A stretch of 64,000 bases of DNA from Bryoerythrophyllum caledonicum. Taxonomy: Eukaryota; Streptophyta; Bryopsida; Pottiales; Pottiaceae. Both the position numbers and the translations under genes were made by a program. Positions 18,005-62,982 of this stretch are shown here, piece by piece; the first letter of the stretch is position 1; every line of letters starts with the position of its first letter. The DNA lies in assembly GCA_963971425.1 (NCBI GenBank), contig OZ020524.1:2947773-3011772 (forward strand), read 5' to 3'. The notes beneath the pieces were generated by a model, which did no database searches, was not told where the DNA came from, and worked only from the letters and a program-made list of their open reading frames with translations.

Positions 18005-18030
18005 ATGCCATATTTAACTATTTCTGGACT
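18005..18030 (+). repeat. Element B left terminal inverted repeat
   Basis: 26 bp, ATGCCATATTTAACTATTTC then TGGACT, an exact inverted match to 38622-38647. A shorter echo (TTTTGGACTAAGGACTAAAAG) follows at about 18038, so the subterminal region is repetitive as in many TIR transposons. Confidence 0.9.
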
Positions 18031-18225
18031 ATGAGGTGAATTTTGGACTAAGGACTAAAAGAAAGATCCAGAGATGTGCCTCATAAAAGATAGTGAAGCA
18101 TAAAAGTCGAGGAGTTTAGAGTACTATTCAAGCATTAAATGCATCACCAATGACACTTATGAAGGAAGAAATGGCTAGAGCGACCAAATTTGAATTTAGA
18201 CAATACGTGAGTCCGCAGCATGCAG

Positions 18226-21200
18226 CTGGATATCTCCGGGTAAATATCAAGGTGGAATTCAGAAGAAGAACCGAGTCCTGAGAACAGAAATTGATGGACA
18301 TACTGTACATCACAAATGTGTGGTTGGGAAAAATGTGGTAGGGAAAACTGGGACAGAGCTGCGGACAGAAAATACTCGCAATTGATAGAACATGCAACCG
18401 GATATCTCCGGATGAAATCAAAGTAAGAGTCCAATACTAAACTGTTTCATTATAAAAAAGTGTCATACAATAAATGAGGGGTGGCTGTTGCTAAGAGGCG
18501 CATGTAATCTATGGAAAATCGATTCAACTATTCTAATTTAAGTGCTTTACAGATGCCTTCTACCCGTCCAGTATAGTGTCTCCCATAAGTTAGATAATGA
18601 ACTATAGCATTTCTAGGATTCTTGAATGGATCTAGATCTGCAACAACAACACATTTTGGCCACAAATAATGCCTTGTTCGAGGATTAAATGAAGCCTTCT
18701 TGAAGATGTGGAGAAACCTAACATAGCTGGGCCTTCGAGTCTGTTTGCTGGCATAGCAAAAAAGAATATCTGATAAGATGTCTGGGGGCAATAACACTTG
18801 GGCCGCCTCCATGAGCCTATCTGGACGCATAGGAGACCAGATCCCGACATTGAAATACCGCAGTAGTATTCGAATAACATCTGCCATGTCATCAAAGGAA
18901 GGCAGCTACGTGGAGCGGGATTTGGCCGAGTCAAGGACCTCGTCCGAGCAGAGAGGACCGCGGAGAGATATGATTATGACCTGCAAATAAGAAGGCAAGA
19001 CCATCGAATTAGAAATAGAGCATTGGAATGAGGAGAAAATATGGTAGGAGGAGTTCAAGTGACAGGAATTCGACCGGAGATCTCCGGGTGCCCCTCCCAG
19101 ACCAACGTTCGGCAGTTGAAATGGTCAGGAGAATACTCAGAAGTGATCACAGATATTGGAAGGTGAAGTTTGGGGGCAAGACACTAACAATAACAAATAA
19201 AAAGAAGGACCTCAACAAATAACGTTACTGACAACAACATTTATCTTCAAAATTGAATGGTCGAAATCCCACAGACATCCTTCACTTAACATTTACAAGC
19301 ATAGAGTTTATAATATCCAATATAATTCATTGTTCTAAGGCGCCGAAATTATGCCCTTCACCACGCACCGGGCCTCTTTGGAATTTTTGTCTACTGGATC
19401 ACTGGCAAACATCAAAGGATGACGTCTAACAAAGTCGGGAACATCTTCATTTGACGCTAGCAGTCCGGAGAGCCATGGGAGAAAAATGGTGGACAACCAG
19501 GTTTCTTTCGAATTCCCAGTCCATGATGGCGGATGAACTGCGCTGAATGGATTGTTAAGGACGTTCTTTAGTGGAGTATCGTCCACAAGCAAGACATCCT
19601 TGGGAGACCTGGGCCACGCCTTGGTGTTATAAATTGTCACGTCCTTAAGGAAAATTGGCTTCGATGAATGGGATGGGAGCGTATATGATGTATTTGTGCA
19701 ATGGGCCTGCGTCAGGATTGTGACGCCTTCCGGAATGACAGCACCTTTCTTGCGCAACTCCTTGATAATATCCACAATATTCTTTTCCACCACACTGCTC
19801 CAGAATGAGACAGTAGCCTTCTCTCCCACGAAGTTCAGGAGTTCAATGGAACCAGGCCTTACTTTGATGTCTCTCGGTTGTCCCTGTTTAAATTCCCCCC
19901 TGTGCACAAGAACTCCATTTAAGTCAAAGATGACATGATAAACCCGATTGGATGTTACCTGATCCTCGGTTGGAGGCTCTCGGACGATCGTAGTACGCTT
20001 CGTCGAACCTGAACCCAAAATACGAGTACGTAGACTGAGATGAGGAAGTTGTTAAGCAAAGTGAAATTTCAATTATACATATAGAAGTGTTCTGCACTCA
20101 CAATCCAAAATTGCTCGATGGAAGAATGAGCACTATGTAGATGATGGCACATAAGTATGAATGTACATATTAGGCACCTGAGACAGTAGGTGGAGTATCC
20201 CTAGAAGTCTGAGCTACACCAGCAACATGAGCAGTCTGTGCGGGGTTTCTGTCACCGACATCCTTCGACTGTGTTGATCCTGCGGACCCCTGAATACCAG
20301 TAACAAAGTGGTAAGAATAAGGTCCGCATCGAGTGAACTGTCTTTAGAACAATGAAGAAGGTTTGATGGACAAGTAACTATTCACCTTATCTTTCTGGGC
20401 CCTTGTCCGAATTGTAGGTGGAGGAGGAGGAGCTTTTGCCGTAGGATTCTTCGCGATTGCCTTTTTCTTCTCTTTTTGAGCCAGCTGCCCGTGGCTCCGC
20501 GGAGGGCTGCGCAGAGGGCTCATAGCATGTAATTCATGCAATGTCTGTTGCGCCGACGCCTCATCCATCGTTTGATCGGTGTCACGGAACGTCAAGTCTT
20601 CGGCACTCTTGCACACAACCTCCACTTCTGGACGCGTCCTCGAAGGGTCGGCCAGCGGGAGATCTCCGGGTGCTCTTTGGGAGTCGTCGAAGTCCAGGCG
20701 ATCGGACATTGCCGTGTCATCGTTCCGATTTGGCGAAGGAGAACGTGGCATGCCGGAATGCCAACTGGTTTCCTTTTCAGAAGTACCCAGTCTAGCGTCC
20801 GGAGTAGAGTTGCTTCTTGAACTAGGCGAGGCTTGCATGATAGGAAGAGGTGGTTTATCAACGTCTACCTGTAAGGGGTGGATTGGGGTGCCCGCACCGA
20901 TGATCCGTGCGGCAGTGGCCAAGGACTGGAGTCCAATGTTGGGTGCCGCTGATGAACTCGGTTCATACCTCACATCAACTTCAATCATCGTGGCATCAGG
21001 TGTCTGCGTCACATTGACGAAGTCAGTGTGAAGAACATTAGGATGCAAATGAGAACGGTATGATACACCCGGAGATCTCCGGTTCAAAGTGGTCCATGTC
21101 TACCGGGTGAACTATATCTGAGCATGGCCATGAGAAATATGAGCCCTAAAATATGGAGGGCATCCTAAACGTATGAACAGCCGGAGATCTTTGGGTCATG

Positions 21201-22941
21201 AAGTTTTCTTAGCTGTTATACCTCGCCGCTGTAGTTCATCCTCGACATTGTCCATGTTAGAACACCAACGCCTGGGGTTGACCCAGTGATGGCAGTCTCC
21301 TCTGACTCCTCTGCAGCGGCGTCGGGTACATCGGCTAAGATATTCAAGTGGTACTATGATATTTCTTCTGCGCAGGATTCTGCCTTGAATTTGGCATCTT
21401 CGCTGCTCACAATCTCGAGGACCCGCGCGTCGTGAGTCTGCAAGATAAAACCTGCGTAAGGCGTCATCGAAAACACATAACTGAAGACGGACCAGAAATC
21501 TATGACGTTGAAGTTGCTTGGGAAGGATGTCCTACTTACCAATCCGAGGTATGTTAAATGTGGTCCACCATGGACATTGACAACCACCATATCCTCTCTA
21601 ATGAACCCCGTGAACAGCAAATCGAGGACCGAGATCCTCAGCTGTGGGACACCGGTTTGCTTCCAGCGCTGGATGGTTTCTTGATGTTGAGCAGCTGAAT
21701 AGAAGGCCTGCATTTTGTCTGCGTGGGCTTTGTAGAGCCTTTTGAATGACTGAGCAGGCGTCTCGCTCAAGTCGTATTCACACAGGAATACACAATACAC
21801 TGCCTCCTCGACCCCGATTACTGGGGTCGGAAACCAATCACCTGGGTGGAGGAAGTAGTAGACCACATGCGTCGCCCACAATTTCACCTTGCCCCTGGAC
21901 TCTCTCTACCGAAGACTGATGTACCTCTTCAATTCAATGAATCCCGCGACATCGGTGATAAGAACGGACGGTGATGTGACCCTCGTCCTCCCGTCCTTCG
22001 TGTCCACTTCCAGATGGTCGAAAATGGTTCTGAAGTCCAACGCATCCAGGACCTGTGCACGGCATATGTCGTCTTTCACGCGATAGAGGAAAAAGAAGTA
22101 AAAGTGAGGGTCATTGACGTTACGCCACTCCTGAATGTCCGGCATGATAAGTACTTCGGCGATCTCGCCCCCTCTCTCTGGCATAACCCTGCAGGTGTAT
22201 TTGGAGTCGAAAAGGGACTTGTCATCCGTAGGTGTGGCCTCGGCAGCATCTTCAACGATGTGTTGACTCCAGATGGACACAAGGACGTCCGGGGTGGGGT
22301 CGGTCTCCTTGTTGATCGCCTTCAGTCGACCCACAAGCCAAGCTTTACCCTTGGCAGAGTGATTAGCGGCGTCCACCCAAGACTCGAGCTGAACCCGTCC
22401 AATATCCCACTCTGCCGCAGAGGCATCCCACTGCTCCTTCGTGTAAGGGACGAAGTCAGCAGCCTTCGAGGGAAGGGGGTGCGACTTGTAATTTAACATG
22501 AATTCATTCTTCATAGCCCGGATTCTCTTCTCCTTGTTCGCCGCGTTTTCGAGTGTCTCGGTCTGCCCTTTCATAGTACCTTGGTTTGCCGCTTTGGAGG
22601 ACTTCACACAGACCTTCGCGAGCGCTAACTCCGCGAGGTAGTCAAGGTCTTCAGCGCGCATTTTATAGAGTGGCTTGAAGTCGTTCTGCACCAAAGGCTT
22701 CCGCTTCAGCTTAGCTGGGTCGCCAGTCTTCCCGTTCGAGTCTGGTAGGAGTCCAGCGACGAACATCCTATCGATTAGGATCTACTTCTGGACCACCGCG
22801 TCATCCATCTCGAATAGAAGAGGGACCTTTGCGTCTTTTGGGTAAGTTTTGCCGAGGTGAGTGAAAACCGTCGGCACCACTTGCCGTTGGAACGTCTGCA
22901 ATAATATATAACTCAGTGTGTGAGCACCCGGAGATCTCCGG
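18226..22941. repeat. B-type palindromes CCGGAGATCTCCGG, left set
   Basis: Perfect copies at 19074-19087, 21069-21082 and 22928-22941. Copies with one or two changes at 18226, 18398, 20656 and 21181. Those at 21069, 21181 and 22928 lie in introns of the ParB-HAD gene; 20656 lies in an exon, where it encodes APGDLP in the disordered linker. Copies nearest the left terminus are the most diverged. Confidence 0.9.
18528..18978 (-). pseudogene. Small gene downstream of the HAD gene in element B, unknown
   Basis: A minus-strand exon starts after an acceptor ending TTATTTGCAG (18979-18988) and runs about 150 codons to TAG 18528. The frame is open except for one in-frame TAG near 18906 (CAG before decay is likely), 20 nt upstream of the first Met (18887). 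The product is mostly helical and hydrophobic-basic (DVIRILLRYFNVGIW, YVRFLHIFKKASFNPRTRHYLWP). No domain recognised. Upstream exons were not identified. The equivalent place in element A lies beyond the copia insertion. Confidence 0.45.
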
Positions 22942-24353
22942 TAGATTGGATTTGTTGCTTGAAGAATGAGCTCATTAATGAAATTGAAATATATTCAGGT
23001 GGAGGATGTAAGCTTACCGAGAATTCGTCAGATTGTAGACGACCATAGAGTTGGGGGGCGGGTTTTCCGAACTCAAACCACTTCACTCTGCACGTTTGCA
23101 GCTGCTCGGTAAAACTCTGCTCCTTCCGCAGACCCGTCAGATCTTGGTTCAGAGCACGCGAGAGTTGTAGCAGGGTCATGTCTTTGGGGTTTGGTTTGGT
23201 CCAAACCGGGATGATAGAGAAGTGCGATATTTCTTCGAGCGTCCACGTTGATGGCAGTTCGTGTGACAAGATCTTGTGCGCCTCCACAGTATGTTGACCA
23301 CCAATAATGTAAAAGTGTGTCGTGTCCCTAAGGCAGTCCTCCTTCGTTGGTTTGGTCGCGAAGAACTCCACCTTCGTTCCGTCAGGTTTATTCTTCAGTG
23401 GCAAGACTCGAATGTGAATCTTTGAGGCCGTGGCCTTCGAGGACGCACGAACTGCGTTGATGATTCCTTCGAGCCGTTCTTTCTGGATGCCCTTGTACAC
23501 TAATCCTCCAGGGGGGGCCCTATGTAGATTATTGAAATGAACGAGCTTCACGACATCCTTCTTCGTGACAGGGTCTTCTACTGTCAAAGGCTTATTCTTG
23601 AGTATATAAATGTTCTTGAACGCGTTGTCGAGAACCTTGCCAATTGCTTCAACTTCAGTCCTCTTCATTTTGGCGAGGTCAGCCTGTGTGAAGTTGAGGC
23701 ACTTTTCGATCGCAAGGCCAGGCTCATCGACCTTCGCTTTCTTTCCCTTCTCTGCCCGCGACGAGGAACCTGGGGTCGAAGTTTTCAAGGTGGTCTTGCG
23801 TTTTCTTCCCGGGGTTGATTCTGGTGTCAGGGACAGAGTGGATGTCGGGTCTGGAACGGGCTTTCGGGACTTCTCTTGTGCTTTTGCCATCCACTTCCAC
23901 TGCTCAATAACGTACGCCGGGCTCCATGTATCAGTCGTGGGAGGGCCGTATAAGAAGTTCTCACTCTGACATGTCTGCGCCATCTCATCCAAAATCTTAG
24001 AGGTCTCCAGAATCAAGCCGTATATGAGAGGCTCGGTGGATGAGTCCACGTTCTCCTGGACGACAAGGAGGCAGACCTCGTTGTCAAAACCCTGCATCTC
24101 TAGAACCTCGAGTCCAATGTCGGGGTGTCCCCGTTTGTCAATCCGAAGTTGGGGGACGTATGTCCAGGGTTCTTCAGGGGTTTTCAAGAGCTTCATTCCC
24201 CACTGGCTAATGCTCTCTCGGCATTTGTAGACGTAGCCAACATTGTGAATTCCTCTGTAGACAAACTCAGGGAGCCAGAACTCTACAAACGCCCCAAGCT
24301 TCCCGGGACGACTTTCAGTCGGAAGTGTGGTTGTCCACGAATCCCTGCAAGAT
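19335..24353 (-). pseudogene. ParB-like / linker / FCP1-type HAD gene of element B (six or more exons)
   Basis: Exons on the minus strand: 24353-23018, 22895-21540, 21437-21222, 21003-20386, 20289-20178, 20008-19335. All junctions are GT-AG and every phase agrees, giving about 1436 codons plus missing 5' exon(s). Domains in order: an N-terminal region (FVEFWLPEFVYRG); a Ser/Lys linker; a ParB/sulfiredoxin-like domain with THFYIIGGQHTVEAHK near 23290; a large helical region; a disordered Pro/Ser/Lys linker; and an FCP1/NIF-type HAD domain (VIFDLNGVLVHRG, FWSSVVEKN, LLVDDTPLKNV). The second Asp of the DxD motif is Asn, so phosphatase activity is doubtful. Three in-frame TAGs (22782, 21906, 21354) fit CAG decay; alternatively these mark separate genes, which the unbroken phase argues against. 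Related to the broken gene of element A. Confidence 0.75.
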
Positions 24354-24577
24354 GAGTTCGAAAGAACATAAACGCAGTTAGAAATCACTGCAATTGACCG
24401 GTAACCTATGGGGAGTCCGTCACTCAAAACCGGCTGTATTCCTAGGGATGGATGATAGAAATCGAGCTTCTAAATCAATTAATTACTGCTCAAGCTAGGA
24501 GAGGTCTTCGCACAATTATCAGATCTACAGACACTTGAATGATCTTAAATCGCTTGAAGTATCTTGCATGCGCTCAG

Positions 24578-25032
24578 CCGGAGATCTCCGGTTCGTCAGG
24601 AACGATCTGTAGCCGGCATGAGGGGGTATCGAAACATGCTTGAAACGTCTCGAGATCTACAGCTCTATGTCGGATTGTGAGCAGCAATGGCGTTCGTTTT
24701 CGTTAAATTCCATTGCGAAAGTATCCGGAGATCTCCGACTGATTTGCGGATGTCGTGTGCATCCGTCCAGGAACGATTCGGTGCGTATCAGTCGGAGCCA
24801 ATTCTGTCCTCAACCGGAGATCTCCGGATGATGACCAGAATGTCGAGATTCACATCTTCCTACGTGCGTATATGCACTGCTTCGTAACGTCCGGAGATCT
24901 CCGGTTATTTTTGAGATTTACTAAATCGTGGAAAAATATTTCAAGACTCATCAGACCTTGACATTATCCGGAGATCTCCGGCTGATTATTGGAACTCCGT
25001 ATTCCGTTCGGGATGCAACCGGAGATCTCCGG
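24578..25032. repeat. B-type palindromes, cluster upstream of the ParB exon
   Basis: Six copies in 455 bp: 24578, 24814, 24891, 24968 and 25019 are perfect, 24725 has one change. Spacing is 51-147 bp with unrelated sequence between. They lie in the upstream intron or promoter side of the ParB-HAD gene, the densest set in the element. Confidence 0.92.
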
Positions 25033-25599
25033 CTGAAGCAAGTACGGATTAACATTGCACTCATCGCAACTTACCATCACGCGTATATTCACATTCATTC
25101 ACAGAGAAGTTTGACATACTACTCTGGAAGTTTTACATACTCAAAATTCATGTTTCAAATTACAAAACACACTGAGACGTATCAAAAGCTCACACAATGC
25201 TTTCAATAACCGACCTTACACACAGGAAATTGAATCTGCAAATGTTCCGATGGAACGCCAAATGTAACGTTTGCACATGGATTACTCTTGTCATTAAATC
25301 GGGCCGGACTCGAAAGACTCAGAATGGACAAGCACATTCTAACGCTCGTACAATACATAACCACACGCATATACATGAATTGAAACACACTTTTGTTCAT
25401 GGGACATCAAAAAATGAATCGACTATAGCCTAACAGATATCTGAATTCTAGTACTCATCCTCTGAGGTTTCTCTTCATTATTTAAGTGTACTTTGTTGTC
25501 ATACACCCGCTAGGAATCAAATGAACAAACTTGAATCACAATAAAATATAGAATCCACACACAGTCGCTCGGACACAGTGGAAACAGTTCAATGTTGTA

Positions 25600-26190
25600 G
25601 ACTTACCGGTCTCTTTTCCATGAAGTCTCACTCAACGTTCCAGCTCCAGTCGCCATTTCCCAACCTCCTCGAGGAACTCCTCGGGATCGAAGCGAATTCA
25701 CAGCTCTGAATGACATCAACATTCAACAACTCAGCTTCACAAACTCTACAATTTTTCAGATGCCCTAGAATTTCAGGTCCACATCTGATTGACAAGATTT
25801 CCGCGAAATATATTTCAACACTGCTCATTTACGGATAACATGCTCATTTACACGCATAACATGCATAACATGCTCATTTACGGACCTTCTATACTGAATG
25901 CACTGAATACCAGAACCCTATACCCTAAGCCCTACAATTCCGCTTCAACGTCTAACAACATCAGAATTACTCGACTCTCTTGAACCCTAATGGCGCTTAT
26001 CGAATCCTACACCTACCCCAGTGCCGATTCTAAGCAGTCCTGGGAAACTACGATATTTGATGACACTGAATTTTAATCTGTGAGAGAGTACATACATCTT
26101 CACTGACTCGGCGCACCCGTTCCTCGTGGTCGTTCGTGAAGACGCCACCCTCAACCGCAACGTCGTTGCAGCTTCGCTGGTGAATCGAGG
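25600..26190 (-). other. Candidate 5' exons of the element B ParB-HAD gene
   Basis: The first securely homologous exon (24353) begins at an acceptor and lacks a start codon, so 5' exons must exist. Candidates are a minus-strand ATG at 25621 with a good GTAAGT donor a few codons later, and an open stretch at about 26180-26092 ending in GTATGT. Neither could be confirmed from homology with element A. Confidence 0.3.
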
Positions 26191-27840
26191 CGCTCGCTAA
26201 ATTTAAAAACCTATTTCAGTATCTCTGTTCCAGTCCTGCTCTCCGACCTTCAGTCCATATCCAGAAACAACCTCTGGACGATATGCTCAATGTCCCTCAC
26301 TTTTATCAACACTCACCTCGTACACCGACAGCCTCTCACAGCGCACACCGCCCTAACCTAATGCGTTGACGCCTATTGTGCAAACCACGAAAAAAACCCC
26401 TCCCGCCACTTCCGCTCACTACCTACGACATTACAAAGACAACACCCATAAAAAAACAAGAAAGGTTTGATGCTTGGAGTTCCCCTAACCCGATAGGGAC
26501 AAGCTGGATGGCTCAAGGGCTGTGACGGCTCATGATGACAGTGGGTGAACTTAAAAATCAGCTCTAATCACGTACATATACAACGTGTACATTTCACAAT
26601 CATGAATTGTCAATGTCGTGAGCATGCGTGACGAGACGTATTGATACCCGGATTCCTGGATATTACATATGGCTACAGTAGATACTCGGGTTCACCGGGT
26701 ATTAGAGTAATCATCATACTTGAATTTAAAACGTCATAAGTGAATAAGCTTAATCTCCCTCTCCGTTACTCTCCCTCCCTTCTTTCCCTCACTTGTTTTT
26801 CTTATTTATGTTTTGCTCTCCCCTCCTTCTCCATCTCCATCTCATTTTTAATCTTGATTCTAGTAATTTTTAGGCTCTCCGTGATTTCAATAATTACACA
26901 TTCTTAAATTAACCTACTACTCTAAAAATAAATCCCGCACTCTTCCTCGTTTACTCTCCCTCCCTATCCCTTATTCTCCCTCACTTCCTTACTCTCCCTC
27001 TCCATCTCTTTTCTAGTTTTGACTTTTTTTTTTCCCCTAAATTCCCCTAGTGGCATATTCTAAAAATATAAACTACTTTAAAATAAATCCCTCCCTTACT
27101 CTCACTCTCTTACTCTCCTTCTCAATTACTGTCCTTCCCTTACTCTCCCTCTCCCTTGATTTTAATTTATTTTACTTTTAATTACCCCTCCTACTCAATA
27201 TCCATCCTTGGTTAATAATATTGTACTATTGTAATAGTAAAATTATTTTTTCTATTCTATTCTATTGCATTATTAAATCATGCATAGGTTTCAAAGAGAT
27301 ATATACTTTGTTGTTACCTTTCTTCTTAATTATTTTGTGATATTAAAACTACATTAATGGTTGAACTAATGCATTGCAAAGCAAGCGCCAACTCCTAGCC
27401 ATAGTACTAAAATCATAATTTGCGCAATAAACCACAAAGTGAACTATCGCGTAGTCAACCATGCTGTGAACTACAAAAACGCTACTTGAACCACGGTGTC
27501 AACTGTACAGTGAATCATTCCACCTTTCATTTTTGGTATTTTTAAATATAAAAAATACATAAATATGGTTGGGCTAATGCATTGCAAAGCAAGCGGCAAC
27601 AGCTAGTCTACTCTAAAATTAGATCCATTATCCTCCCTCTCTTCTTTATTCTCCCTCTAACTAAATTATAATGTATCAAAGTCTTAAATAGTTAAAGTTC
27701 AATTATCACTAAATTTTCTTACACGCTATTGAATCCAGTTTTTTTTAAAGTTATAGTTATCGATAAATTTAAGGTTATAGTTCATAGTATCAATAAATTT
27801 TTAATTTATAGATTTAAAGGTGATATAAGCCCTCGACCTT
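26191..27840. repeat. CT-rich and AT-rich low-complexity spacer in element B
   Basis: 26740-27180 is a degenerate CTCCCTCTC-type pyrimidine repeat, with another short block at 27620-27660. The phrase GCATTGCAAAGCAAGCG recurs (27371 and 27578). No gene seen. Confidence 0.6.
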
Positions 27841-28065
27841 CATGAACCCAGAACCTTCCACGGTGAACCCTAAACCGTGAACCCTTAACCTTCAACCCCA
27901 AACCGTGAAGTAGAAACCCTGAACCCTAAACCCCAAACCGTGAAGTAGAAACCCTGAACCCTAAACCCTAAACTGTAAATAGTGAACCCTGAACATTAAA
28001 CCGTAAACCCTAAACCCTAGACCCTAGACCCTAGACCCTAGACCCTAGACCCTAAACCCGTTGTC
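27841..28065. repeat. Interstitial telomere-like repeat
   Basis: Degenerate CCCTAAA units, mixed with AACCGTGAA and GAACCCTGA variants, end in about six perfect CCCTAGA heptamers (28015-28052). This is the C-rich strand of the plant TTTAGGG telomere repeat. A weaker patch is at 30738-30775. It could be a relic of break repair or an expansion by slippage. Confidence 0.75.
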
Positions 28066-29720
28066 GAGTAGCGAGAGTTTTTCTTTGGGAAATCGCGGAG
28101 ATCCTAGTTGCTGCTAGAAATGGTTTGAGAACAAAGATTGTCTCCAAATAAATCTCTAGTCTTGACCACAAAATCCTCTTGTCTTCAAATCTTTAATCTT
28201 CATTCTTCAATCTTCAATCTTCAAACTCCTCCCCGTTGGCCTATCATGTGGTGGCTCTAAAGGGTTAAGGGTAAGGGTAGGTGATAAGAAACCACGGCCT
28301 CGGACGGGTAAAACGGGACGGCCAAACCACGAGCTGACCGTCCGAAAGATTGGCTCCTAAACTTTAAACCCACGGTGAACAACAATCGCGCCTCACCGGT
28401 GGGAACAACATAAACACGACCGTGTGGGCCATTAACCCCACTTCGCCGCAACAAAGTTTACGAAGTAGAATTGAAAAAAACAACTAGCCTCCAAAACCGG
28501 CTGGGAATAACAAATAAAGACAACGAGCCTCCAAAGCTGGCTAGGAATAACAAAGCCACAAGCCACAACATGCGAGTCTTCTTGTCTTCTTATCTACAAG
28601 TCTTCAAGTCTTCATTCTTCAAGTCTTCATATCTTCATTCTTCAAGTCTTGAAGTGTTCAAAAACACAAAAGACCTCCCAAAGTTCTTTACCACACTAGC
28701 TGCGAGCTTCAGATTGATGCCACAAATGGTTTGAGCCTCCATATGCCAAGTGCTATAACTTTTTGGAAAGCTGGTGCAATAAGCTAACACCCTCCAAAAT
28801 CTCACGTTATTCTAAACTACCTTCTAAAAGTTATGGAGGTTCAAAATTTGTGCCTTCTAATGTCGATGGCAGCAAACCCTCTCCAACTTTGGCGGCTATA
28901 ACTTCTATAGTACAATTCTAAATGAGTCCTATAATAGCTTTATAGAAAGCTAATTTAACAAGCTACAATTTCTCCAAATTTCACTTTAAACTAATCTATT
29001 CACTAAAAGTTGTGTAAGCTCAAAACTCACGCCTCCCCACTTACAAGACGGCAGAACTCTCTTCTACTTAGATGGCTATAACTTTTTCATAGAGCATCTA
29101 AATGAGTCGAATGATAGCTTCTTAGAAAGCTAGTACAATGAGGTATGTTTTTCTCAAATTTCAAGTCCGAACACAAAGTATCAAAGCCGTGGTGAAGGCC
29201 CGAAGTTGCTGCTCCTCTAATTGAGTAGCGGCCAGCTACTCCGCACTCAATCTCTCATAACTTTTGCGTATGAACTCCAAATTGAACAAAAATACCGCTC
29301 AAAAAAGTGCAACTTCACAAGGAACAACTCCACAAATTATCATAACATTCTCATGAAAAACGAATACACACCGCCCGATCTCCCTCTCGGGAATTTTCTC
29401 ACAGCACTCTCCACACATCAAAAACACACACCAAGAAGAAAAGAGAGTCGCCCCCCCTTATCCTTCCACATCAGCCCATGTCTAAGCCACATGGGCATCT
29501 AAAGCCTATTGGTTAACCTCCAAAAGCACTCTAAAGTCTACCAAGATAAGATAGGAAAAAAACTCCAACCATTGGGCTTCAAAAGGTGAAGTTCCAAAAG
29601 AATTCTAAGACGGTCAAACCTTTTCTTAGTTTCTTTTCTTTTTCTTTCTTGGATCTTGATCTAACATAAACATAAACACATAACAAACTCCTATATTAAC
29701 AACTGAATGGATTCTACCTT
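28066..29720. repeat. Non-coding repeats in element B
   Basis: A roughly 40-bp direct repeat (AGCCTCCAAA.C.GGCT.GG) lies at 28485-28555, a CTTCAAGTCTTCATT-type run at 28570-28660, and three diverged units of 140-180 bp at about 28745-29150, each with GCTATAACTT followed by a TAGAAAGCT motif. No gene is supported. Confidence 0.5.
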
Positions 29721-29723
29721 TAT

Positions 29724-32869: not shown

Positions 32870-33166
32870 CCGGAGATCTCCGGCTATTCTAGCCGTGACA
32901 TTCTGGATTCTGCCATGCTCACTTGCAGGCCACAGCAACTATCCCAAAAACATCTGGCTGTCCCATTTTACGAGCCCAGGGTTCCCGGAGATCTCCGGCT
33001 ATTCAAGGGCGAGATGATCATTGAAAGATATCACGGCAGCGTGGTTCGGATGAACCGGAGATCTCCGGTAAGATTCGAATAGAACTTCCAGCTTCACCCT
33101 TCACATCTTCACTTACACGAGGAGTGGACGTTGCTGATCAATATCGAGTCATCCGGAGATCTCCGA
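32870..33166. repeat. B-type palindromes, cluster before the transposase gene
   Basis: Perfect copies at 32870, 32985 and 33055, and one with a single change at 33153, within 300 bp and ending 115 bp before the transposase start codon. Most are followed by CTA or GTA. The position is suited to promoter control or to binding by an element-encoded protein. Confidence 0.9.
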
Positions 33167-51953: not shown

Positions 51954-54602
51954 TGTAAGCCCAAAAATAAACCCCCTAAGAGAATCCATTTTTAAACCTA
52001 CGAGGTCCTATTGTTACACCACTTACCATTCCTTATGCTTAACTGTAAACCCTAATTTCTACTGGATTTGGATCTTGGCGTATCCATTTATATATTTAGA
52101 AATCAATAGTACTATTATCTTAATCCAGTTAAGTGAACTCGATTAACCCTCCTTGGTATTTAAAGGCTTAACTCTGGATAAATTAGATAGGTATGAATAG
52201 TTAATTAATTAATTGTTATCTAATTATTATGGCTATTAGTTATTATGATTATTATTACTTATTCTTTATTTATTTATTTATTTTAATTTTTTGTTGTTTT
52301 ATTATTATTATTATTATTTTTTTATTATTTTTTTTAGTTTAGGTCAGCTGATCAGGCCTGATCCAGACCCTGGTTGGAGCAGCAACTTCGGCAGCCTTTA
52401 TCTATTGATTCGGGACTCCGAATACCAAAAAATTTCCTCTTAAAATGATCACCAGCTCAATTCCAACTTGGTTGAAACACTAAATACCTAATTTGAGATT
52501 GATACCGGCCTCCACCAGCAGTCGCAGCAGACAGTCCCTGTGAGTCCCAGGTTTTGTCTTTTTTTTTTTAAAACATCTTAACTTCCTAGGATTAACTCCG
52601 AATTGAGCGTTTTCAACTTCTAATCTTATTAGTTTTTCGTGCTCTTGACGATGGACTCCTCAGAATGTCCAACCAGACCTTGAGGACTGCCACATACAGA
52701 CGGACAGCGGCGACCCAACAACCACAACAAGTATTCACAGCTTCCTCATGAGCTCACACATCATTCAATTGGGAACACCATTCACCAAATTCTCAACGAT
52801 TCCAGCAAGCACCAACTTACAAGCATCAGCATTCTTGCATCGGCCAGCGAGCAATCATCACCAAGTTTTGGAACCCTAATGTCAAAAAAAATCCTCCAGC
52901 GCTTCCGCACAAGTTTAGAGATCCCACAAATTCAATCAACACAAGAAGGAAACCGCAACGACCGCATGCAGGTAGGAATTAGGGAAGGTAGCTTCACCCA
53001 GGAAATACTCCCTGGTCCGAGCGCCGCAGCCTCTTCTCGCCTGGATCCTCCAGCTCGAGTCTTCTCAGCTCGCGGCACCTTCACACCACCGCGCGCACAC
53101 ACGGCTCCTCGATCACCAACGCCGACCTTCAACAGCGCCTCCACACCGAAGCTCCCACCGCAGGAGCACTCCAGCGCGCTCTCTCAAAACCACAAAAAAA
53201 AAAAAAAAAAAAAACACGGCTCTCTCTCCCGTGCTCAGAGCCAGACCTCGTGATCACAATCACGGACCCTTGCGCGCACAGGTGCGCCCCTCGCCGAGCA
53301 GCCTTCCGGAACAGAGCCCAGCTCGTGCAAGCCCCAGCTCCGATCCCCGCGCACACACACAAAAACAGAAGAGTCCAGCTCTTCTCTCGCGCCGGAGCTC
53401 ACCCTTCAGCTCCCCGAACACGAGACATCCTCGCGCAGGCAGGCGCAGACCCTCCTCGCGCGCAGCCGGTGCGCTCACCACAAAGACGAGAGACTCTCCT
53501 CGCACAGGAGCCTCGCACAAGAAAAACGAAGAAGAAAAAAACAGAGAGGCCAGCTCTCCCTCGCGCCCAGGGCGCACACACCACCAACCACCAAACAAAA
53601 CAAACCCAACCCAAAGAAAAAAACGAGAGCTCCAGCCCTCTCTCCTGCTCGCAGGAGCTCCTCCTCGCTCCAAAAACGGCCCCCCGAAAATCCCGTGACC
53701 CCAGCTCTCTCGCCAGCGACTCAGCCTGGCTGGTTCTCCTTTTTTTTCTTTTTTTTTCTTTTTCTTTTGGTCTTTCTCGTTTTTCTTCCCCGACAAGACT
53801 GGCTTAGTTTAAATGAGGCAGCCCATGACCTCTCACAGAAGTGCAGGATTGGCCACTTACAGCCGTTTTTGCATGTTTTTAGTTTATTACTAGCATTAAC
53901 TCGCCGCTTTGCTCCTGACAAGCCTCCCTAAAATTAATTCCATGGTGGCAAGAATTGTCATGTGGCATGTGCATGGGGAAGCACACCCAACCACCTTCTT
54001 TTCTTTTCTTCCCCTTTTTTTTCTTTTCCTTTTGATCTTTTAACGACCATTACCCTAGATCTACTACTATCTACTGATGATTTGCAATTTACTTATAACT
54101 TCAAAAACTAACCACATAGCTGGACTCCTAGCACCCTAATTAGTCTACACAAATTTTCCTAGCATTTTTGGAGTTCATTAAGTATTTTTTCCGAGTGGTC
54201 AACCCGTCGACTAACTAGTCAACCCCTAGAATTAAATAGTAATTCAACTCGGAAATTTCTAGAAATTTTACCACTACTTCTACCTGCTAGGAGACACTCT
54301 CTCAATTTTTTCCATAATTTTTGTCCCATTTCTCAATTTTTAGTCATTTTCCAAGGACCTTTTTTTCCCTTTTTTATCTTTCTCTTCATTCCCACTCCAC
54401 TTCCACTACACTTTCAAGCATATTAGTAGGGAAGAGGAAAAATACGAACCGTAGTGTGACATCATGGCACTAAGTTTATTACTCTAGGAATTTGACTCTA
54501 GTAGATGGATTGACTACTACTTTAACTAAAATTGGGTCAATACTATCAAAAACTCGAAAAAAACAAAGAAAAAAGAGTGAGGGCCCACTTTGGCCACTCA
54601 CA
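51954..54602 (-). repeat. Gypsy-2 LTR, right copy (its 5' LTR)
   Basis: Same 2649-bp length as the left copy and near identical. The T/C run near 54361-54375 differs by one base from its partner at 44047-44061. Flanked on the right by ACTTG. Confidence 0.95.
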
Positions 54603-55067: not shown

Positions 55068-55072
55068 AGACC

Positions 55073-55582
55073 CATCATTGCGAAGCACACAAAACAACTC
55101 GTCCTAATCTACAGAGGATTGGGACCATGGCGGGTATAGCCACCTCTGTACTGTGTTTCTCTGCGGGGTCCTCCGGAATGAAAGACAATGGGAGGGAGCT
55201 GCACGGGATCGAGCTTGTGCTGCCAAGGATTCCAGCGTCCATGGACGTCGAGGGTGTGCTTGACGGAGTACACTATAAGTGGTGGAATTCTCCAGCATGC
55301 CACTGGTACATCATTGATGGCCAACACACGTACCTAGCATGCAAAGCACTTGGCGAGTTGGAGCCCGTGGATTCGGACAGGGCAAATTACTTCCTCGAAT
55401 ACGATATTATTCCATTGTGGTCGAGGGATCCGGAAAACCTCGTGAAGATCTCCAACCTTTTGAACATTGAAATCAAGGACAAGAAAGCGGAGGAGACCTT
55501 CGTGTCGCAGCTCTGGAAGATGAGGGATAAGTGGATCGAGCATGGTCGGCTCGACCGGAGGACCAACAATAAGAAATGGAAG
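55073..55582 (+). pseudogene. ParB-like exon of element A (after Gypsy-1)
   Basis: Resumes the frame broken at 2715. After a TAG near 55136 the open frame from 55127 (different register) covers the ParB/sulfiredoxin-like core: HWYIIDGQHTYLACKALGE near 55301-55360 parallels HFYIIGGQHTVEAHK of element B, then DIIPLWSRDPENLVK and FVSQLWKMRDKWIEHGRL. It ends at KKWK before a GTAATG donor (55583), the same intron position as in B. In ParB-fold proteins the G-x-H segment is part of the nucleotide-binding or catalytic loop; here the usual R after H is T. Confidence 0.72.
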
Positions 55583-55730
55583 GTAATGTGTTACTTCATT
55601 CAGTAATTTCTCTCCATTATTGGCAATCTCATGAGCATGGCCGAATTAAATTATTGATTATGTTTCATTGGCGGCCAGCCGACAATATTGTAGTTGAGCT
55701 CATGTAAATGTGTTCTATATCATTGTGCAG
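55583..55730 (+). other. Intron of the element A ParB gene with palindrome
   Basis: GT donor at 55583, acceptor CATTGTGCAG ending at 55730. It contains an A-type palindrome (55667-55683), while the equivalent intron of element B (22896-23017) contains a B-type palindrome. Confidence 0.7.
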
Positions 55731-55785
55731 GACTTCTGCTAGGAATACCTTGCAACACTGTTGGGAAATGACTCCAAGACGGACA

Positions 55786-57713
55786 TGTGAGCCGCAAAAA
55801 CGGCTCACGGTGACGAAGGGACCACGCATCATGTGTGTTAAGGTTAACAAGTAGTAGAAATGGATTATCCCATTGGATTAGTTCATGATTTTTTATCAAA
55901 ATGGCTTAATAGCCTTTTCATTCACTAATTCTAGAGATAGGAGCCACATTATGGCAACTAAGAGTTTTATGAAGTTAATCAAAAAATAAATAGAAAGAAA
56001 AAAATAAAGAAAAGGTTAGAAAAAATAAAAACAATAGAAAGGAAGTAGAAATAGGAGTGGAGAAGAATTTACCTCCTACTGAGTCGGGAACCGCAATTGG
56101 CCACGATGAGGAAAGCACGGAAAAAATTAGGAGAAGAAGAAGAATGATGGTGAGGAGAAAAGAAAAGAATGAGGCTCAAAAAGCCCTTAAAAAAATAGTC
56201 AAGGAGGTCCAAAAGAATTGGGCAAAACCCTCACCAATCACTAAATAAATTAGGAATTCCTCCAAGCAAGGGAAATTCATGCTAGGTGGAGTATTAGATT
56301 TTTGCGTCCTTGAATTAGTTAAAATAGCTCACTTATTGGTGATCATGCGCACACCATGTGGCATAAGGTTAAAGTAGGAGATTTAAGTATTCCTTGGTTA
56401 GTGGGACACCGACCTTTGTTAATGCAAGGGTGGCACGGAATTAAGTAGTTATAGGTTAAGAGTTTTTTATGAAGAAGGTCATTTATGGAGGAAGGAAAAG
56501 GCGGCAGGGAGCGACCTTGGGAATGCAAGGGGAGCAAAGGGCTTGGGGGTTACCCCCTGGAGAGACTCTCATTTTTCGTGTGTGTGACAGAAGGACCGTG
56601 AGTGAGGAGACTGAGGGAATGTAGAAGTGTGGACTGGAGAGGAGCCGGAAGCCCCGGCCGTGAATAGAGCTGTTTTGGTAGACAATAGGAAATTCGAGAG
56701 AAATTAGGTTACGAGCAGCACGAAGAGCAGAAGGCGACCACGACTGAGAGGAAGACAAGCATCAAAAAGAACACGAGCAGCACGAAGAGCAGAAGGCGAT
56801 CACGACCAAGAGGAAGACGAGCATCAGGAAGAACACGAGCAGCACGAAGAGCAGAAGACAATCACTAGACACCAAGGGCAGAGGGTGAATTGAGCGGGAT
56901 CAGGGAGCCTCCTTCCTCTCCCAAATTGATTTATTATCCTCTTGATTGCATGTGGAGAAGGAACCCTAAGTTTTCTAGTTACAACAATCGCGCGGAAGCG
57001 CTGCCAAATTTTCAATAGAATTAGGCTTTTCTATCAACCTAACAAAACAACCGGTTTTAATATAAAATAGTAGGTAAGCGCAGCTAGAGGTGCATGTATG
57101 GTATGAGGTTCGAGTAGGACCCTTGTGGGAATGTATATGATATGCACGTGATGTATGGTGCATGGGTTTATATAAACGTATAAGTTGAAGGTTGCACTGC
57201 TGGTTGCTGGGCTGTGAGTCCAAGGTTAGTCGGAGGGGTAATTGAATGCTGCCATTGTGTTAAGCACAAAAAAACAATAAGGATACAAAAAACAAACATA
57301 GAAAACGGAGTAATAACCAAAGAGATACGGGGAATATAAATTCTGGACAAAAAAAAGAAACCTGTCTGCTGTCATATGCTGTTAGGGTCGTGCCTTGGTC
57401 TGGAATTGGTAATTGAGGGTCTAATCAAGTTTATCAGGTCAAGCTGAACCCATCTAAGCTTTAAAATGTTGAAAACGGAGTCCTAGGGTAAAACTTACCT
57501 GTGTATGAAGTTCGGAATTGACTTAAGGCTGAATCCAGTCATCACCACCCATTGGTCCACTAAAATCTCAAGTAACCACAACCTAACCACTATGAGCTGA
57601 ATGTGGCATGTATGGTTAAGTTCCAATAGTGATTGCACGTGGGGTTTTATCCCGGCTTTAGGATCTTGTGTTTAAGATAGGCCATCCGCTAGGGGCGGTT
57701 TATTTGGCTCACA
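55786..57713. mobile_element. Solo-LTR-like insertion, 1928 bp
   Basis: Starts TGTGAGCC and ends GGCTCACA (8-bp inverted ends, TG...CA), flanked on both sides by GGACA (55781-55785, 57714-57718). No gag-pol and no internal pair of repeats is seen, so a solo LTR is the best reading; a non-autonomous short element is the alternative. It interrupts the middle exon of the element A gene. The copy holds a 62-bp tandem repeat. Confidence 0.8.
56711..56870. repeat. 62-bp tandem repeat, about 2.5 units
   Basis: Units start at 56711, 56773 and 56835 with ACGAGCAGCACGAAGAGCAG and differ by a few substitutions. It lies within the solo-LTR-like insertion. Confidence 0.88.
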
Positions 57714-59056
57714 GGACACATTGAAGCTGCCGCTTGTCTTTACACCAGACAATCTTTACAACAAGTGGCAAAAGTCTTTGACGCATGGGATTGGGACAAC
57801 CTGATTGGTGAGGAAGGGAAAAAACCCCAAAACATCCTCAAAATTCCTCAATGGGACCTCACCCTCCACGACCTTCAACACATTCTCGCCCTCCGGGACG
57901 AGGAATCCATGAGGCTTACTCATGAAATCCTTACAAAAGAGGTATGCTTGAAGATAACGGGGCGGCGCGACAAGGATGCAGAAGGAGTTTCGTTGAAATC
58001 CTGGTGTCAGGATAAGAAGATGGAATACATCATCAAGAACGAGCTCATGTTGATGTGTCGGAAGTATCCATTGAAGAAGGTTGGCGATAATACCTACTCA
58101 CCTTGGCCGATTGAAGAATACATGCAGCTGGCAGACGAGAAGGGCATCAGCGACGAAACCATCATGAACATCAGACGCAAGCTGGAGCTTAGTGATCCGG
58201 GAAAGGCCTACCTCAAAGGAAGGTACAACGGAATTACTCCAAGTACCATCCCAGCTCCAGCGGAGTTCCATGTGGCGTTACGGAAGTATGCTCTCAACTG
58301 CAGCGATGTTGTAGATGAGTATAGTGTCCGCCATGAAGTTCAGGTTGCACAGGAGCTTGAGGACGTCGTGAGCCATATCAACCAACGCGGACTCTTCAAT
58401 CTTGAGAAGGCGGCGCGCGAGATGTTCATCGTGTTCGGCTTTGATAAGTGCGAGGTTCCGATCTACTGCAACAAAGATGGGCTCAAGGCTGTTGCAGAGA
58501 GGGTGTTGCGGGGTGAGGTGGATGACGGGAACTTTTTGCCTCTTCAGTCTTCATCACAAACGATGAGTCCATTTTGTTATTGAGACTAAATGTCGTTCGA
58601 AGAAGCTGGATTGCGCAGTCGATACCATCCCCTACCTTCCAGACTCCAGTGGTACATTTACTCCCTCTGCCATGGATGAGAGACCCATCGTGCATGTCGG
58701 CATCCTTTTCAACCAGCTCGAAGCTCCACAGGACCGCCGCGCCAGTTCCAAAAGGTTACTGGATTGACGAAGCCTCTTAGTCCACTCTACGACGAAGTTG
58801 CCTCTACCTCGGCTGAGAGTTGGGCTGGAGATGAATGTCATCCAAGCTTAGAATTGCTCTCATCAATTTTGCAACCTACACTGGTGAAGGGCGACTCAAG
58901 TCTGACCGTCTTCAACACTTAAGGTAGAGGCAACGTGACTGCATTGGCCTTGGTAAGTCACCTCTCTTTCATCCATTCATTCCTTCTTTCCTTCACCTTC
59001 TCGTGTCCGTTGGCAGCCCGCCAATGAGACAATTTTCATACTGATCATTGACCCAG

Positions 59057-60128
59057 ACTATTTGCCCAACAGCGACACTAAGCGACAGTGATCGAGTTTG
59101 TTCGCTAGGAGACAGAGGTTGTTGTCGCGATGGAGCGAGTGCAGGCTATGTCCTTCCTACCAGGGAGAGCTCACCCGCTTGTGCTAACACTTCCAGCTGA
59201 GCCCGCTGTGGAACCCAAGGAGGTGGTCACATTGATTGAGACCGACCAGGATTCAGAGAATGGGACCGAGATAGGCGACGATGCGATGGACGACAGCTTC
59301 TTCCCCGGCAACATGCAGAACGATGGACTGCTCACAACAACCGACATAGGTGTTTGTCTTGATGAAACACACCTGATAAGGCTTCAAAAGGGTGGAAAGA
59401 CACCAAATGTGGTGAGACCAGAGGTGGAGCCGCGGCACGATGACTGTCCCCCTGCACAAAGCGGGATGACCGTCCCCCTGTTCGCACAGCCTGTGGATAA
59501 AATCGTCGTGCGCTCGCAAGGTATCTTTGTCCCTCCTCGAGTTGTGACCTCCATCGACCCTGGAGTTGGCGGCCCGCCGACGCTGCCTGCACCAAGCCAA
59601 GTTGTATCTGGAGGGCCTGTACCGCGTGAGAATCCTTTGAGTTCTTCACAGCCAAACGCGTCCACTACTCCAAAATCTAGCGATGTTCTTCATTATGCAC
59701 CGGTGCCAGAAGTGGTGAGCAAGAAGAAGAAACCGAACGTGAGGAATATTCCTCCAAACCGGACTACTCACGTTGTGGCTTCCGAAATCAATGGAGGCTA
59801 GACTCCCCAGAGTTCCGCCCCCACCGAGCCACCGAAAAAGAAGCAACGGAGCCAGTCGCGGAGTAGCAAGGCACCGTCGGAAGAAGGTGGTGTTTCCTCG
59901 GGGGTGCCGTCACCGAAGAGCAGTTCGAAGAACAATAAGGAAGGGCGGTCTTGGAAGCGGTCGCCTCTGCCTCCGAAAAATGGATTGCAAAAGGCCAAGA
60001 GGGGGGGTTAGTACTGGTTCCACCCCAAGAGAACTTTTGATGTCCCCTGACTCTGCTGATCATCCCAACACGGGGCTTTCGCCTACTGCTCCTCCTGTGA
60101 GGCAGGATACAGACAATACATCTGGAGG
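59057..60128 (+). pseudogene. Linker exons of the element A gene
   Basis: Acceptor ending CCAG at 59056; open frame 59130-59801 (Pro, Thr, Ser-rich, disordered), continuing in frame after a TAG at 59799 through PPKKKQRSQSRSSKAPSEE to about 60009. A further exon, 60010-60128 (STGSTPRELLMSPDSADHP), matches the B exon 20289-20178. The Lys/Arg/Ser blocks could be nuclear-localisation signals. Ends at a GTTAGT donor. Confidence 0.55.
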
Positions 60129-60345
60129 TTAGTCATGAGATAGTGCACCTAGGAGATTTTTCTTGCAGTTTAGCACACTACCTTTCTAATAAATGTACTT
60201 TATCACGTGAACACCAAACCCCTTTTCTATGGTTGTTCTTCTGAGTTCGCAGTCTATAATCTTAATGTATTTTCATGTTCCACTTCTCTGTCGGCTGCCC
60301 GCCGACTGTATATCTAATAGCTTCCATATTTCTATCAATCAGCAG

Positions 60346-61208
60346 TTCATCTGGGTATCCCTCCTCCTGTTGTTTCAACTTTAGCAATAGACGAAGAAGG
60401 AGCGGATCAGGAAACGGAGGCATTTGAGCACAACATTCAGATGGGGAGACAACCACTCAATAACTATTTCCTTGTCCTCCATATAAACAGTCTGTTACTC
60501 ATCCTAGATATTAGTAAGGACGGGTTGTTGTATAGCAAGATCCTGTCACGCATGGTTGAGCTTCTTAACTACTGCGTTACGAACTTCAATATTGTGATCT
60601 GGAGTTTGGAGAATCCAGATAGGCATGCCCATGAACTGAAAACCCTTAGAGATGCATGTCCCAACATTAGAAGGCTTGGTTATATTTTTTATCAGTCATA
60701 CTGCGACGTGGCAAGGTTTGGTGTTGGGGGTCAGAAACTCTACCTGAAGAGGCTATCTACGCTTTTCTTAAGTCCTCGGCGCTAAAAAGAACTGAAGCAA
60801 ATAGCAGCAACACCTTGTTGATTGACGTTTCTCCTTTTACGAACGTCAAGAACAATCCATGTAATGCCATCCATCTGGTTCCCTTCACCATAGATTCTAT
60901 TGAGACCTCTAGGAATGAGTCCTCTGTTCTCTTCAAGGCCTCAAAATTCCTTGAAGCCATGAAAATGTTGGGCATGACTGTACCCTTGTATATCGTAGAT
61001 TGTAGATTGCCTTTCCTTGGTGAAAGAATCGGATGTGCCTTTCAAAAGTCCAAGAAAGGCACGCATTCGCGTGGTAGAGAAAGACAAAACTTCCACTGCC
61101 AAGGCCGTCATCCCTGGGATCCGTCGTCTTCTACCAGGTGACCCTGAATGGGAGCAATACATATGGTCGTACCCAAGCAATAGGCGTCCACGTCCTAGTA
61201 CTACTTAG
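60346..61208 (+). pseudogene. HAD/FCP1-like module 1 of element A
   Basis: Acceptor CAG at 60345, with the same intron phase as the HAD exon of B (two bases complete the codon). The module begins NYFLVLHINSLLLILD, where FCP1-type enzymes have a DLDxTL motif; both catalytic Asp are absent (His and Asn). FNIVIWSLENPD corresponds to motif II. After a TAA at 60782 and a frameshift, NTLLIDVSPFTNVKNNP matches motif III (LLVDDTPLKNV in B) with the second Asp changed to Val, and the module ends PGDPEWEQYIWSYPSNRRPRP at 61208. Pseudo-phosphatase or dead gene. Confidence 0.72.
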
Positions 61209-61274
61209 AACTTGCCGTCGGCTGGCAACCGACGCTTGCAAAACCCATGTTGTAATTCACGTCTGTATAAATCT

Positions 61275-61282
61275 ACAAAAAT
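61275..61282 (+). terminator. Possible polyadenylation signal after HAD module 1
   Basis: AAAATAAAGAC contains AATAAA about 70 bases after the module 1 stop. It may be chance, since a near-copy of the region (AATAAAATCC at 62220) follows module 2. Confidence 0.3.
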
Positions 61283-61404
61283 AAAGACTGTCTCCAACAA
61301 CTTTCTGTGGTTCATATTCCAAATTAATGTCGTCATAACAATCACAGTGTCCAGCACTTATGTTTGATACTTATTATATCTATGTCATCGATTGTTGCCT
61401 CCAG

Positions 61405-62131
61405 GTGCCCCACATTGTCGATGGGTCTCAAGCGGGGGGAGATTCCATACAGAAGCATCCTGAGGTGCCAACTGTGAAGGTCAATCACTACTTCCTTGTC
61501 CTTGGTGTAAACGGTTTGTTGATCGTACATAATATAGGCAAGGACGGAAAGTGGCATACCAAATTCAGGCCGAAGTTGGCTGATTTTATCAACTTCTGCG
61601 TGGATAACTTCACAGACACATAATTGTGCTTTGGAGTAGCGAAAGTGAGCCTAAGCTTGCTGCTCAATTGGTAGCCCTCAGAGGCCACTACTCGGTTCTT
61701 AAAGTAGTCAAACAAGTATACGATAATTCCTACTATGATGTAGCTAAGAAACTAGTAGGAAATCGGAGGGTTTACCTCATGAGACTATCTATATTGTTTT
61801 TGAACCGAAAGGCAATGTTAGGATCTAGCGTGAATAGTCAGAACACCCTTTTGCTTGACGACTGTCCTTATAGGAATATTAGGAATAGTCCTCTGAATGC
61901 AATGCATCCGATGACATTCACCCTAGAGTCTATGGAGTCGGACAAGAACGTCATTCTTCCAAGGGTCGTTAAGTACCTTTCTGCTTTGTTAGAGTTAGGC
62001 TTGCCTATACTCAAATATATTCGGAGGAATCCTAGCTCTGGATGCCCTCAACTCTCCCCCGGTGACCCATAGTGGGAGGACTTTGTTCTGGCGTACCCAA
62101 GCAATACGCGTCCCCCTCGTACCGTTGCATA
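61405..62131 (+). pseudogene. HAD/FCP1-like module 2 of element A
   Basis: Acceptor CTCCAG at 61404. HYFLVLGVNGLLIVHN replaces the nucleophile Asp by Gly. A frameshift near 61620 separates it from LWSSESEPKLAAQL (motif II side). NTLLLDDCPYRNIRNSP (about 61850) keeps the motif III Asp-Asp. It ends PSNTRPPRTVA before TAG 62129, with one TAG near 62070. It clearly shares origin with module 1, including the final PSN.RP motif. Confidence 0.72.
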
Positions 62132-62305
62132 GTAGTCCGGCGTCGGCGGGCAACCAATGCCAAAATCGCCCAATTTTTCCAGGCTTTGACATTCATGTCT
62201 ATAACACCACTTCTCTATGGAATAAAATCCCTCACAATAATCACAGTCTCCCTTGCACATGGCTCATCACTTATTGTATGCATTTGAATCGATTTTTCCC
62301 TTTAG

Positions 62306-62982
62306 GTGGACTGTCTTGATGAGGAGATGGAGGAGTTGGTTACGATTGCTGAGAACCCGGTCGTTATATTTCTGGATGATAGCACACCGGCGAGACCGAG
62401 TCCTCACCCGATCGACGGCTCGCAGTCCACGGCTTCCGTTCCCGGAATTCGTCCTACCCACAACTTCGGTATGGAAGATGACGATTGAGACTTTGCACCA
62501 TCACCGATGGAGGTGGGGCCCAAATGTGTCCACCGTGTTCTTGTCAAATCTGTCGCGGACCACAGTATCAACCGAGAAGACGACAACCAAGCGTTTGCCT
62601 TTGACGGAGCTTGGCCTGGGGTGGTCGGAGTAGTCGGCGGGCCGCTGACCGCTACATCTACCCCATACCCAACTGCCACCGTGAGCTCCGAAGTTGTTCC
62701 AAGGAACATTCAGGTGGGTCCTTCAAGATACTACCTCGTCCTAGAAGTTAGAGGGCTTCTAATGGCTGAACAATATGGTTATGGAGGAAAAGATAAGAAG
62801 ACCCATTTTCATCAAAAACCTAGGCCGGGTCTTCTTGAGTTCCTGATGTTCTGCCAGTCCAACTTCTGGTCCACCGGGAAACACAAGCCCATGATTAGAT
62901 ACATGGGTTACCTGTGCGAGATAGACGTTATCTTATCGGACCAGACACTAATGAACGGAACACACTTTTGATCGATCATTAC
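62306..62982 (+). pseudogene. HAD/FCP1-like module 3 of element A, cut by copia
   Basis: Acceptor CTTTAG at 62305. The frame is shared by 62306-62485 and 62489-62971 with one TGA at 62486. A linker holds an in-frame palindrome (62633). The HAD start RYYLVLEVRGLLMAEQ replaces the nucleophile Asp by Glu and the second Asp by Arg. The copia element at 62983 interrupts motif III: in a shifted frame the last codons before it read NTLLIDHY. Confidence 0.68.

Follow-up and report, generated by a model that had tools for sequence, protein, structure and literature searches.

In the bacterial ParB-parS system a palindromic site is recognised by a protein dimer, and in CACTA transposons (En/Spm with its TnpA) multiple short sites near both ends are bound by a protein that the element itself encodes. 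The anti-silencing VANC proteins of the Arabidopsis VANDAL transposons are reported to bind short motifs that have amassed in the non-coding DNA of their own family (PMC5735166; PMC10398659), and related VANDAL families differ in motif, which in the available portions of the report is YAGTATTAY for VANC21 and AGTTGTCC and AGTTGTAC for VANC6 (PMC5735166). ParB-like accessory proteins are already known from giant transposons of algae: Sola1-1_Ec32 of Ectocarpus, a DNA transposon of 21.5 kb, carries the gene of a ParB-like protein on the other strand from its transposase, and the authors who describe it suggest that ParB-like proteins bind and modify their own transposon (PMC12477816). Here we describe two related elements, A and B, in a 64,000-nucleotide stretch of Bryoerythrophyllum caledonicum (contig OZ020524.1, positions 2,947,773 to 3,011,772; hereafter the window), each of which carries its own dispersed palindromes that may serve as self-recognition sites of an element-encoded protein. 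The palindromes had been noticed in an earlier reading of the letters alone, referred to below as the original prediction.

Results

Private palindromes of the two elements

The elements and genes on which the analysis centres are the following.

18005-38647: element B, a 20.6 kb DNA transposon with terminal inverted repeat (TIR) ATGCCATATTTAACTATTTCTGGACT and target site duplication (TSD) AGAT (18001-18004 / 38648-38651); TIR by alignment, exact ends read from the flanks
19335-25656, minus strand: gene P of element B, modelled with GT-AG introns as 7 exons; 1450 codons precede the end stop, and three TAG stops lie in frame
33281-36738, plus strand: gene T of element B, DUF7869 protein (PF25273, E 1.2e-42), two exons, in-frame stops, seen against homolog P0001
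1-2720, plus strand: element A, left piece, with the start ATG of its P gene at 1409 and an in-frame TAG in that exon
55068-62983, plus strand: element A, right piece, with the ParB-like exon (to 55582), probable further inserts (by eye), the linker and three degenerate HAD copies

The B palindrome, CCGGAGATCTCCGG, is present in 25 copies, 15 exact and 10 diverged, all inside element B. When up to three mismatches were allowed, 26 matches were found in the 64 kb against 1.37 expected, a number reached in 0 of 100 shuffles; one of them (36820) overlaps the perfect copy at 36830, and 25 sites were therefore counted. Element B holds 15, 21, 24 and 26 matches at up to 0, 1, 2 and 3 mismatches, while there are none at up to 3 in element A (10.7 kb) or in 31.7 kb from elsewhere in the window; positions 62991-64000 lie outside these three regions, and the best match there has 6 mismatches to either motif. 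In an unbiased count of perfect palindromes across the window, the commonest of 10, of 12 and of 14 bases all lay in this 14-mer. The same 14-mer occurs in viral contigs at 80 or more loci, as a single copy in each (80 of 80 among the matches listed), and single copies are unremarkable.

The A palindrome, the 17-mer GTCGGCGGNCCGCCGAC, has about 12 copies (13 minus a doubtful one at 1443), all inside element A. It gave 11 matches at up to three mismatches against 0.02 expected, and within element A 1, 5, 7, 11 and 13 matches at up to 0, 1, 2, 3 and 4 mismatches, with none at up to 4 in element B or in the 31.7 kb of other DNA. At 5 mismatches, matches turn up in B and elsewhere at chance level, and the separation ends there. 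The A sites are more degenerate than those of B: the arms GTYGGC/GCCRAC are mostly kept and the central 5 bases vary. The original prediction thus counted the B family correctly, and its claim that neither family occurs in the other element or in the DNA between holds at these thresholds; for A its number of about 12 stands, with only one of the copies exact.

The B dyad is longer than the 14-mer. Of the 24 copies with up to 2 mismatches, 19 have A at position -2 (binomial 3e-7) and 20 have T at +2 (2e-8), and neither count was reached in any of 20000 random draws; A is absent from -3 and T from +3. The 30-nt flanks of the sites are at chance identity (mean 7.6/30, best pair 14). Because the outer positions are symmetric within flanks of chance similarity, the B sites have the look of mutually independent targets of a symmetric dimer rather than of a single inserted repeat that was copied. 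The mismatched bases in the 25 sites number 15, of which 9 are C>T or G>A, 4 are one shared variant of the subterminal sites and 2 are other changes, which suggests that the ancestral B sites were nearly invariant.

In element B the sites are placed as follows.

18226-18411: two left subterminal sites, variant centre (CCGGATATCTCCGG type)
19074-19087: one site, 3' of P
20656-20669: one site with 1 mismatch, in the linker coding exon of P
21069-21194: two sites, P intron ahead of the linker exon
22928-22941: one site, P intron 2
24578-25032: cluster of 6 sites, P intron 1
32870-33166: cluster of 4 sites upstream of the T start codon
33681-33694: one site, T exon 1 (coding)
34671-34684: one site, T intron
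36830-37247: cluster of 4 sites downstream of T
38311-38520: two right subterminal sites, same variant centre as the left pair

Exons are avoided, as 23 of the 25 sites lie outside them while coding sequence makes up 55% of the native 13.7 kb (p 9e-7). The native length leaves out 25701-32599, which was presumed to be an insert and has 0 B palindromes; with it included, coding is 37% and p is 1e-3. The subterminal sites, two per end and 127-393 bp from the ends, form a class of their own, since the variant centre (GATATC-type) is found in 4 of 4 of them and 0 of the 21 others (p 8e-5, a post hoc comparison). The suggestion that the palindromes are protein sites is thus borne out for B to the extent that its sites resemble protein-binding dyads and avoid exons.

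Element A and the homologous places of gene P

The sites of element A are distributed over its two pieces.

262 and 383: upstream, left piece
1443 (doubtful), 1508, 1672 and 1831: intron 1, left piece
55667-55683: intron homologous to P intron 2 of B, right piece
59009, 59565, 60290, 61217, 62142 and 62633: further sites, right piece

The homology between the genes of A and B, which the original prediction had asserted, is weak but real. P begins with a short ATG exon in both elements, and place and phase agree for the two introns checked, intron 1, which is in phase 2, and the one that follows the ParB-like exon, in phase 0, so that the predicted match of introns is upheld for these two. The phases in A were obtained by arithmetic, and its first exon is less sure because of the in-frame TAG. 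At these shared places each element has sites of its own family: 6 in B and 3-4 in A in P intron 1; one each in P intron 2, at 76 (B) and 84 (A) nt past the donor; 2 in B and 1 in A in the intron ahead of the linker exon; and 1 each in the linker exon (the linker region of A was read by eye). Since one and the same gene has different site sets at its homologous places in A and B, these sets were probably replaced or built up after the two elements diverged, in agreement with what had been proposed. It seems that the sites themselves were replaced and several of their positions retained, a pattern that speaks for function.

The evidence that sites are independent is weaker in A than in B, because part of the intron-1 cluster arose by local duplication; the flanks are alike at 19/30 positions between sites 1508 and 1672 and at 18/30 between 1672 and 1831.

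Gene P

The product of gene P of element B has an N-terminal domain, a ParB-like domain with the motif IIGGQHT, a linker and a C-terminal HAD/NIF domain, and the gene is divergent from T in orientation. The last acceptor of its splice model was picked to preserve the frame. Three homologs of the second exon were found (P0121-P0123; 52, 34 and 32% identity), all with IIGGQHT, which by eye reads like ParB/Srx; the ParB label is a motif reading only. The last exon matches NIF (PF03031) at 8.6e-13, with 48.7 bits against a Pfam cutoff of 21.8. DxD is the catalytic signature of NIF/FCP-type HAD proteins, and the motif in B departs from it, reading FDLNG with the second Asp missing. The A copies read LHINS, LGVNG and LEVRG, all without the first catalytic Asp, and with the NIF profile one of them scored 12.1 bits (E 0.16) and another gave no match. 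The match suggests kinship of fold rather than a proven phosphatase activity, and because the motif is degenerate in B and has lost its first Asp in all three A copies, a binding role seems as likely as catalysis.

Only 3 homologs were found for P against 154 for T, in word-limited searches with queries of different length; the small number would be in line with a fast-evolving specificity factor. The three tandem degenerate HAD/NIF copies of A span 60465-62968, and B has one. The premature stops of P, at 22782, 21904 and 21356, are all TAG and come with no frameshift, the pattern expected from CAG>TAG deamination in CHG context. An alternative code with TAG as Gln was ruled out by a nearby 1991-codon gypsy ORF that is open under the standard code.

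Gene T and the structure of element B

The gene T protein has 154 homologs at E<=0.001, and the best among the matches listed (120 of the 154) shares 72% identity with the query over 94% of its length. In the aligned DUF7869 homologs the columns D129/D132, D255 and D295/D297 are conserved, and the product of T is therefore likely to be a DDD/E-type transposase. Its predicted fold was too poor for use. In Pfam searches DUF7869 was the only domain recognised in T, and there was no Mutator-type domain in the scanned ORFs. Scans of viral contigs with T and with the P alignment recovered no DNA of relatives. A scan of GTDB genome contigs with T gave two contaminant-like contigs (L121 and L122) at 23-25% identity; they carry distant DUF7869 relatives in metagenome-assembled genomes of two Bacteroidetes, probably as eukaryotic contamination, and have no copy of either palindrome, their best matches differing from the B motif at 4 and from the A motif at 5-6 positions. 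An N-terminal domain common to T and P ('VHP...WG', from reading) was considered and is not put forward, as lenient tblastx of the left piece of A against the T region gave only matches at chance level.

Element B is best explained as a giant cut-and-paste DNA transposon with intact ends, and element A as its decayed relative. The TIR of B is a perfect repeat of 26 bp, and the ends of the element read ATGCC. Terminal inverted repeats and a 4-bp target site duplication, both present in B, are features of the Sola superfamily, and a 4-bp duplication can be shared by other superfamilies. It occurs in Sola1. For Sola2, too, a 4-bp duplication is given in the available part of the description (PMC3627910).

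Near the right end of B, 37723-38127 is a possible third small gene with an acidic, Glu/Asp-rich product and a TATA-like sequence ahead of it (by eye). AT-rich repeats of 16 bp (TTTGAAAAAGTAAACG type) form an array of 22 register copies at 31378-31825, within a possible MITE-like insert of B at about 30.99-32.04 kb (by eye). In the presumed insert within B, GC skew is strongly negative over 26000-30000 (-0.33 at 26-28 kb), and by eye there are runs resembling CCCTAAA/CCCTAGA, possibly interstitial telomere-like repeats, near 27.9-28.06 kb.

Nesting of the elements

Mobile elements are nested in one another across the window, and one of them splits A and contains B.

2721-55067: Ty3/gypsy element 1, TSD AGACC, long terminal repeats (LTRs) 97% identical; inside gene P of element A, contains element B

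Within its 3' LTR is a second gypsy insertion, with paired LTR copies at 41640-44288 and 51954-54602 (99.96%). The interval 18005-62982 of the original prediction is to be extended, as A also lies at 1-2720 and is split by the Ty3/gypsy element. Element B sits between the LTRs of this element, and because it is nested in what splits A, we infer that B arrived after A was broken. On its right, A seems to have been cut by a copia-like LTR whose start, by eye, is at about 62984, and an ORF at about 63.8 kb is presumably a copia-like gag, judged by resemblance. This ORF and the C>T/G>A decay would point to a plant as the host.

Discussion

Each element holds about 12-25 copies of its own dyad, in B mostly in first introns, upstream or downstream of genes and close to the ends. 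Our overall reading is that these private dyads are self-recognition sites of an element-encoded protein, most likely that of gene P, with an anti-silencing role, and we give this a probability of about 0.5. In such a system the protein would bind the dyads as a symmetric dimer, and the binding would mark the DNA of the element as self and keep its genes transcribed against silencing by the host. The subterminal variant sites may in addition aid the assembly of the transposition complex or the pairing of the ends. As A and B diverged, the protein would have changed along with its sites until the sets no longer overlapped. The product of P is the best candidate for the binder; other possible binders are the DUF7869 protein and a host factor.

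Several observations weigh against this reading. Two of the 25 B sites and two of the A sites (59565 and 62633) lie within reading frames, the A sites 1508 and 1672 belong to a locally duplicated stretch (105 nt, 74% identity) and so are not independent, and the A site 60290 is in the intron before the HAD exon while introns 5 and 6 of B have no sites. Element A is one decayed copy with its transposase region and ends outside the window, and the comparison is one of two elements (n=2). Searches of the four members of the P family with Pfam, NCBIfam and PHROGs, to E 10, gave no ParB or other DNA-binding domain, so that of the ParB-linker-HAD gene originally predicted the HAD/NIF part is supported, in B by Pfam, and the ParB part finds no support in these libraries. 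The fold model of P is unreliable (mean pLDDT 43.6).

Subterminal repeats are common in DNA transposons, and the sites 127-393 bp from the ends of B have a variant of their own. This fits binding by the DUF7869 transposase or another product of T, as with the subterminal repeats of CACTA and hAT elements, with P as unrelated cargo. However, 21 of the 25 sites are not subterminal, 10 are in gene P (9 intronic and 1 exonic) and 4 are just upstream of T, which would be odd for pure transposition sites, and we regard this explanation as unlikely, if still worth keeping in mind. The upstream and first-intron placement would suit host regulatory sites, that is, the elements could have gathered sites of host transcription factors that drive their genes, and the A arms GTCGGC/GCCGAC include the plant DRE/CRT core RCCGAC. 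Against this, long exact dyads that differ in two homologous genes and are symmetrically extended in B are unusual for host factors, and the nested retrotransposons have none, which makes binding by host factors rather improbable.

An explanation without any function for the element is that palindromic mini-repeats have hopped or been copied within each element and spread by themselves. The B sequence is nearly invariant in many copies with unrelated flanks, and some A copies are in a local duplication, as such repeats might be; but no target duplication is apparent (by eye, the B sites are flanked by A..T and not by direct repeats), exons are avoided, one class is restricted to the ends and the neighbouring DNA has none. 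We consider self-spreading quite improbable. Both motifs are inverted repeats and could in principle act as RNA or cruciform structures, but with 0-1 nt between the arms there is no loop and the hairpins would be short (by inspection), and the majority of the B sites are intronic or lie outside genes, so that this possibility is very slight.

Self-recognition by the P protein through private dyads can be compared with several known systems. VANDALs are Mutator-like elements, and VANC is not ParB- or HAD-like; element B differs from them in having DUF7869 and, in the scanned ORFs, no Mutator-type domain. VANC nevertheless appears to be the closest worked-out case, by analogy in the family-specific motifs that lie mostly in non-coding DNA (here for B; for A by position only). 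In the available text the VANDAL motifs are not palindromes and build up as tandem repeats (PMC5735166), whereas the candidate sites here are dyads and mostly dispersed. CACTA elements have CACTA ends and a 3-bp duplication, in contrast to the ATGCC ends and 4-bp AGAT of B, and most B sites are far from the ends. The likeness to ParB-parS is in the palindromic sites and in the GGQH-type motif of a ParB/Srx-like stretch of P; the differences are that no ParB model matched, that no ParA partner was recognised in the scanned ORFs and that the present host is a eukaryote.

In anatomy the closest is Sola1-1_Ec32, likened here by gene layout only, in which the partner of the ParB-like domain is a DNA methyltransferase, in contrast to HAD/NIF in B. 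The accessible sections of that report mention no private palindromes, and elements B and A supply candidate target sites (PMC12477816). In the open-licence literature, by titles and opening lines of abstracts, we found no paper that describes private palindromes in elements of this kind. New here are the longer B dyad, the exon avoidance, the variant restricted to subterminal sites and the own palindromes in homologous P introns of A and B. A wider proposal, which we consider speculative and unlikely, is that giant eukaryotic transposons have independently evolved, in their ParB-like/HAD proteins, a means of self-recognition: these proteins would load on private parS-like dyads and coat the 20 kb element against silencing, and each lineage would switch dyad and protein as a lock-and-key barrier between related elements. 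The algal reports, as far as their available text goes, name no target site (PMC12477816), and the present locus offers two candidate sites in two homologous elements. If the self-recognition reading is true, sequence-specific recognition of self by transposons, like that of VANC, would have arisen again from different protein parts, and the switch of sites between relatives would show how such systems diverge.

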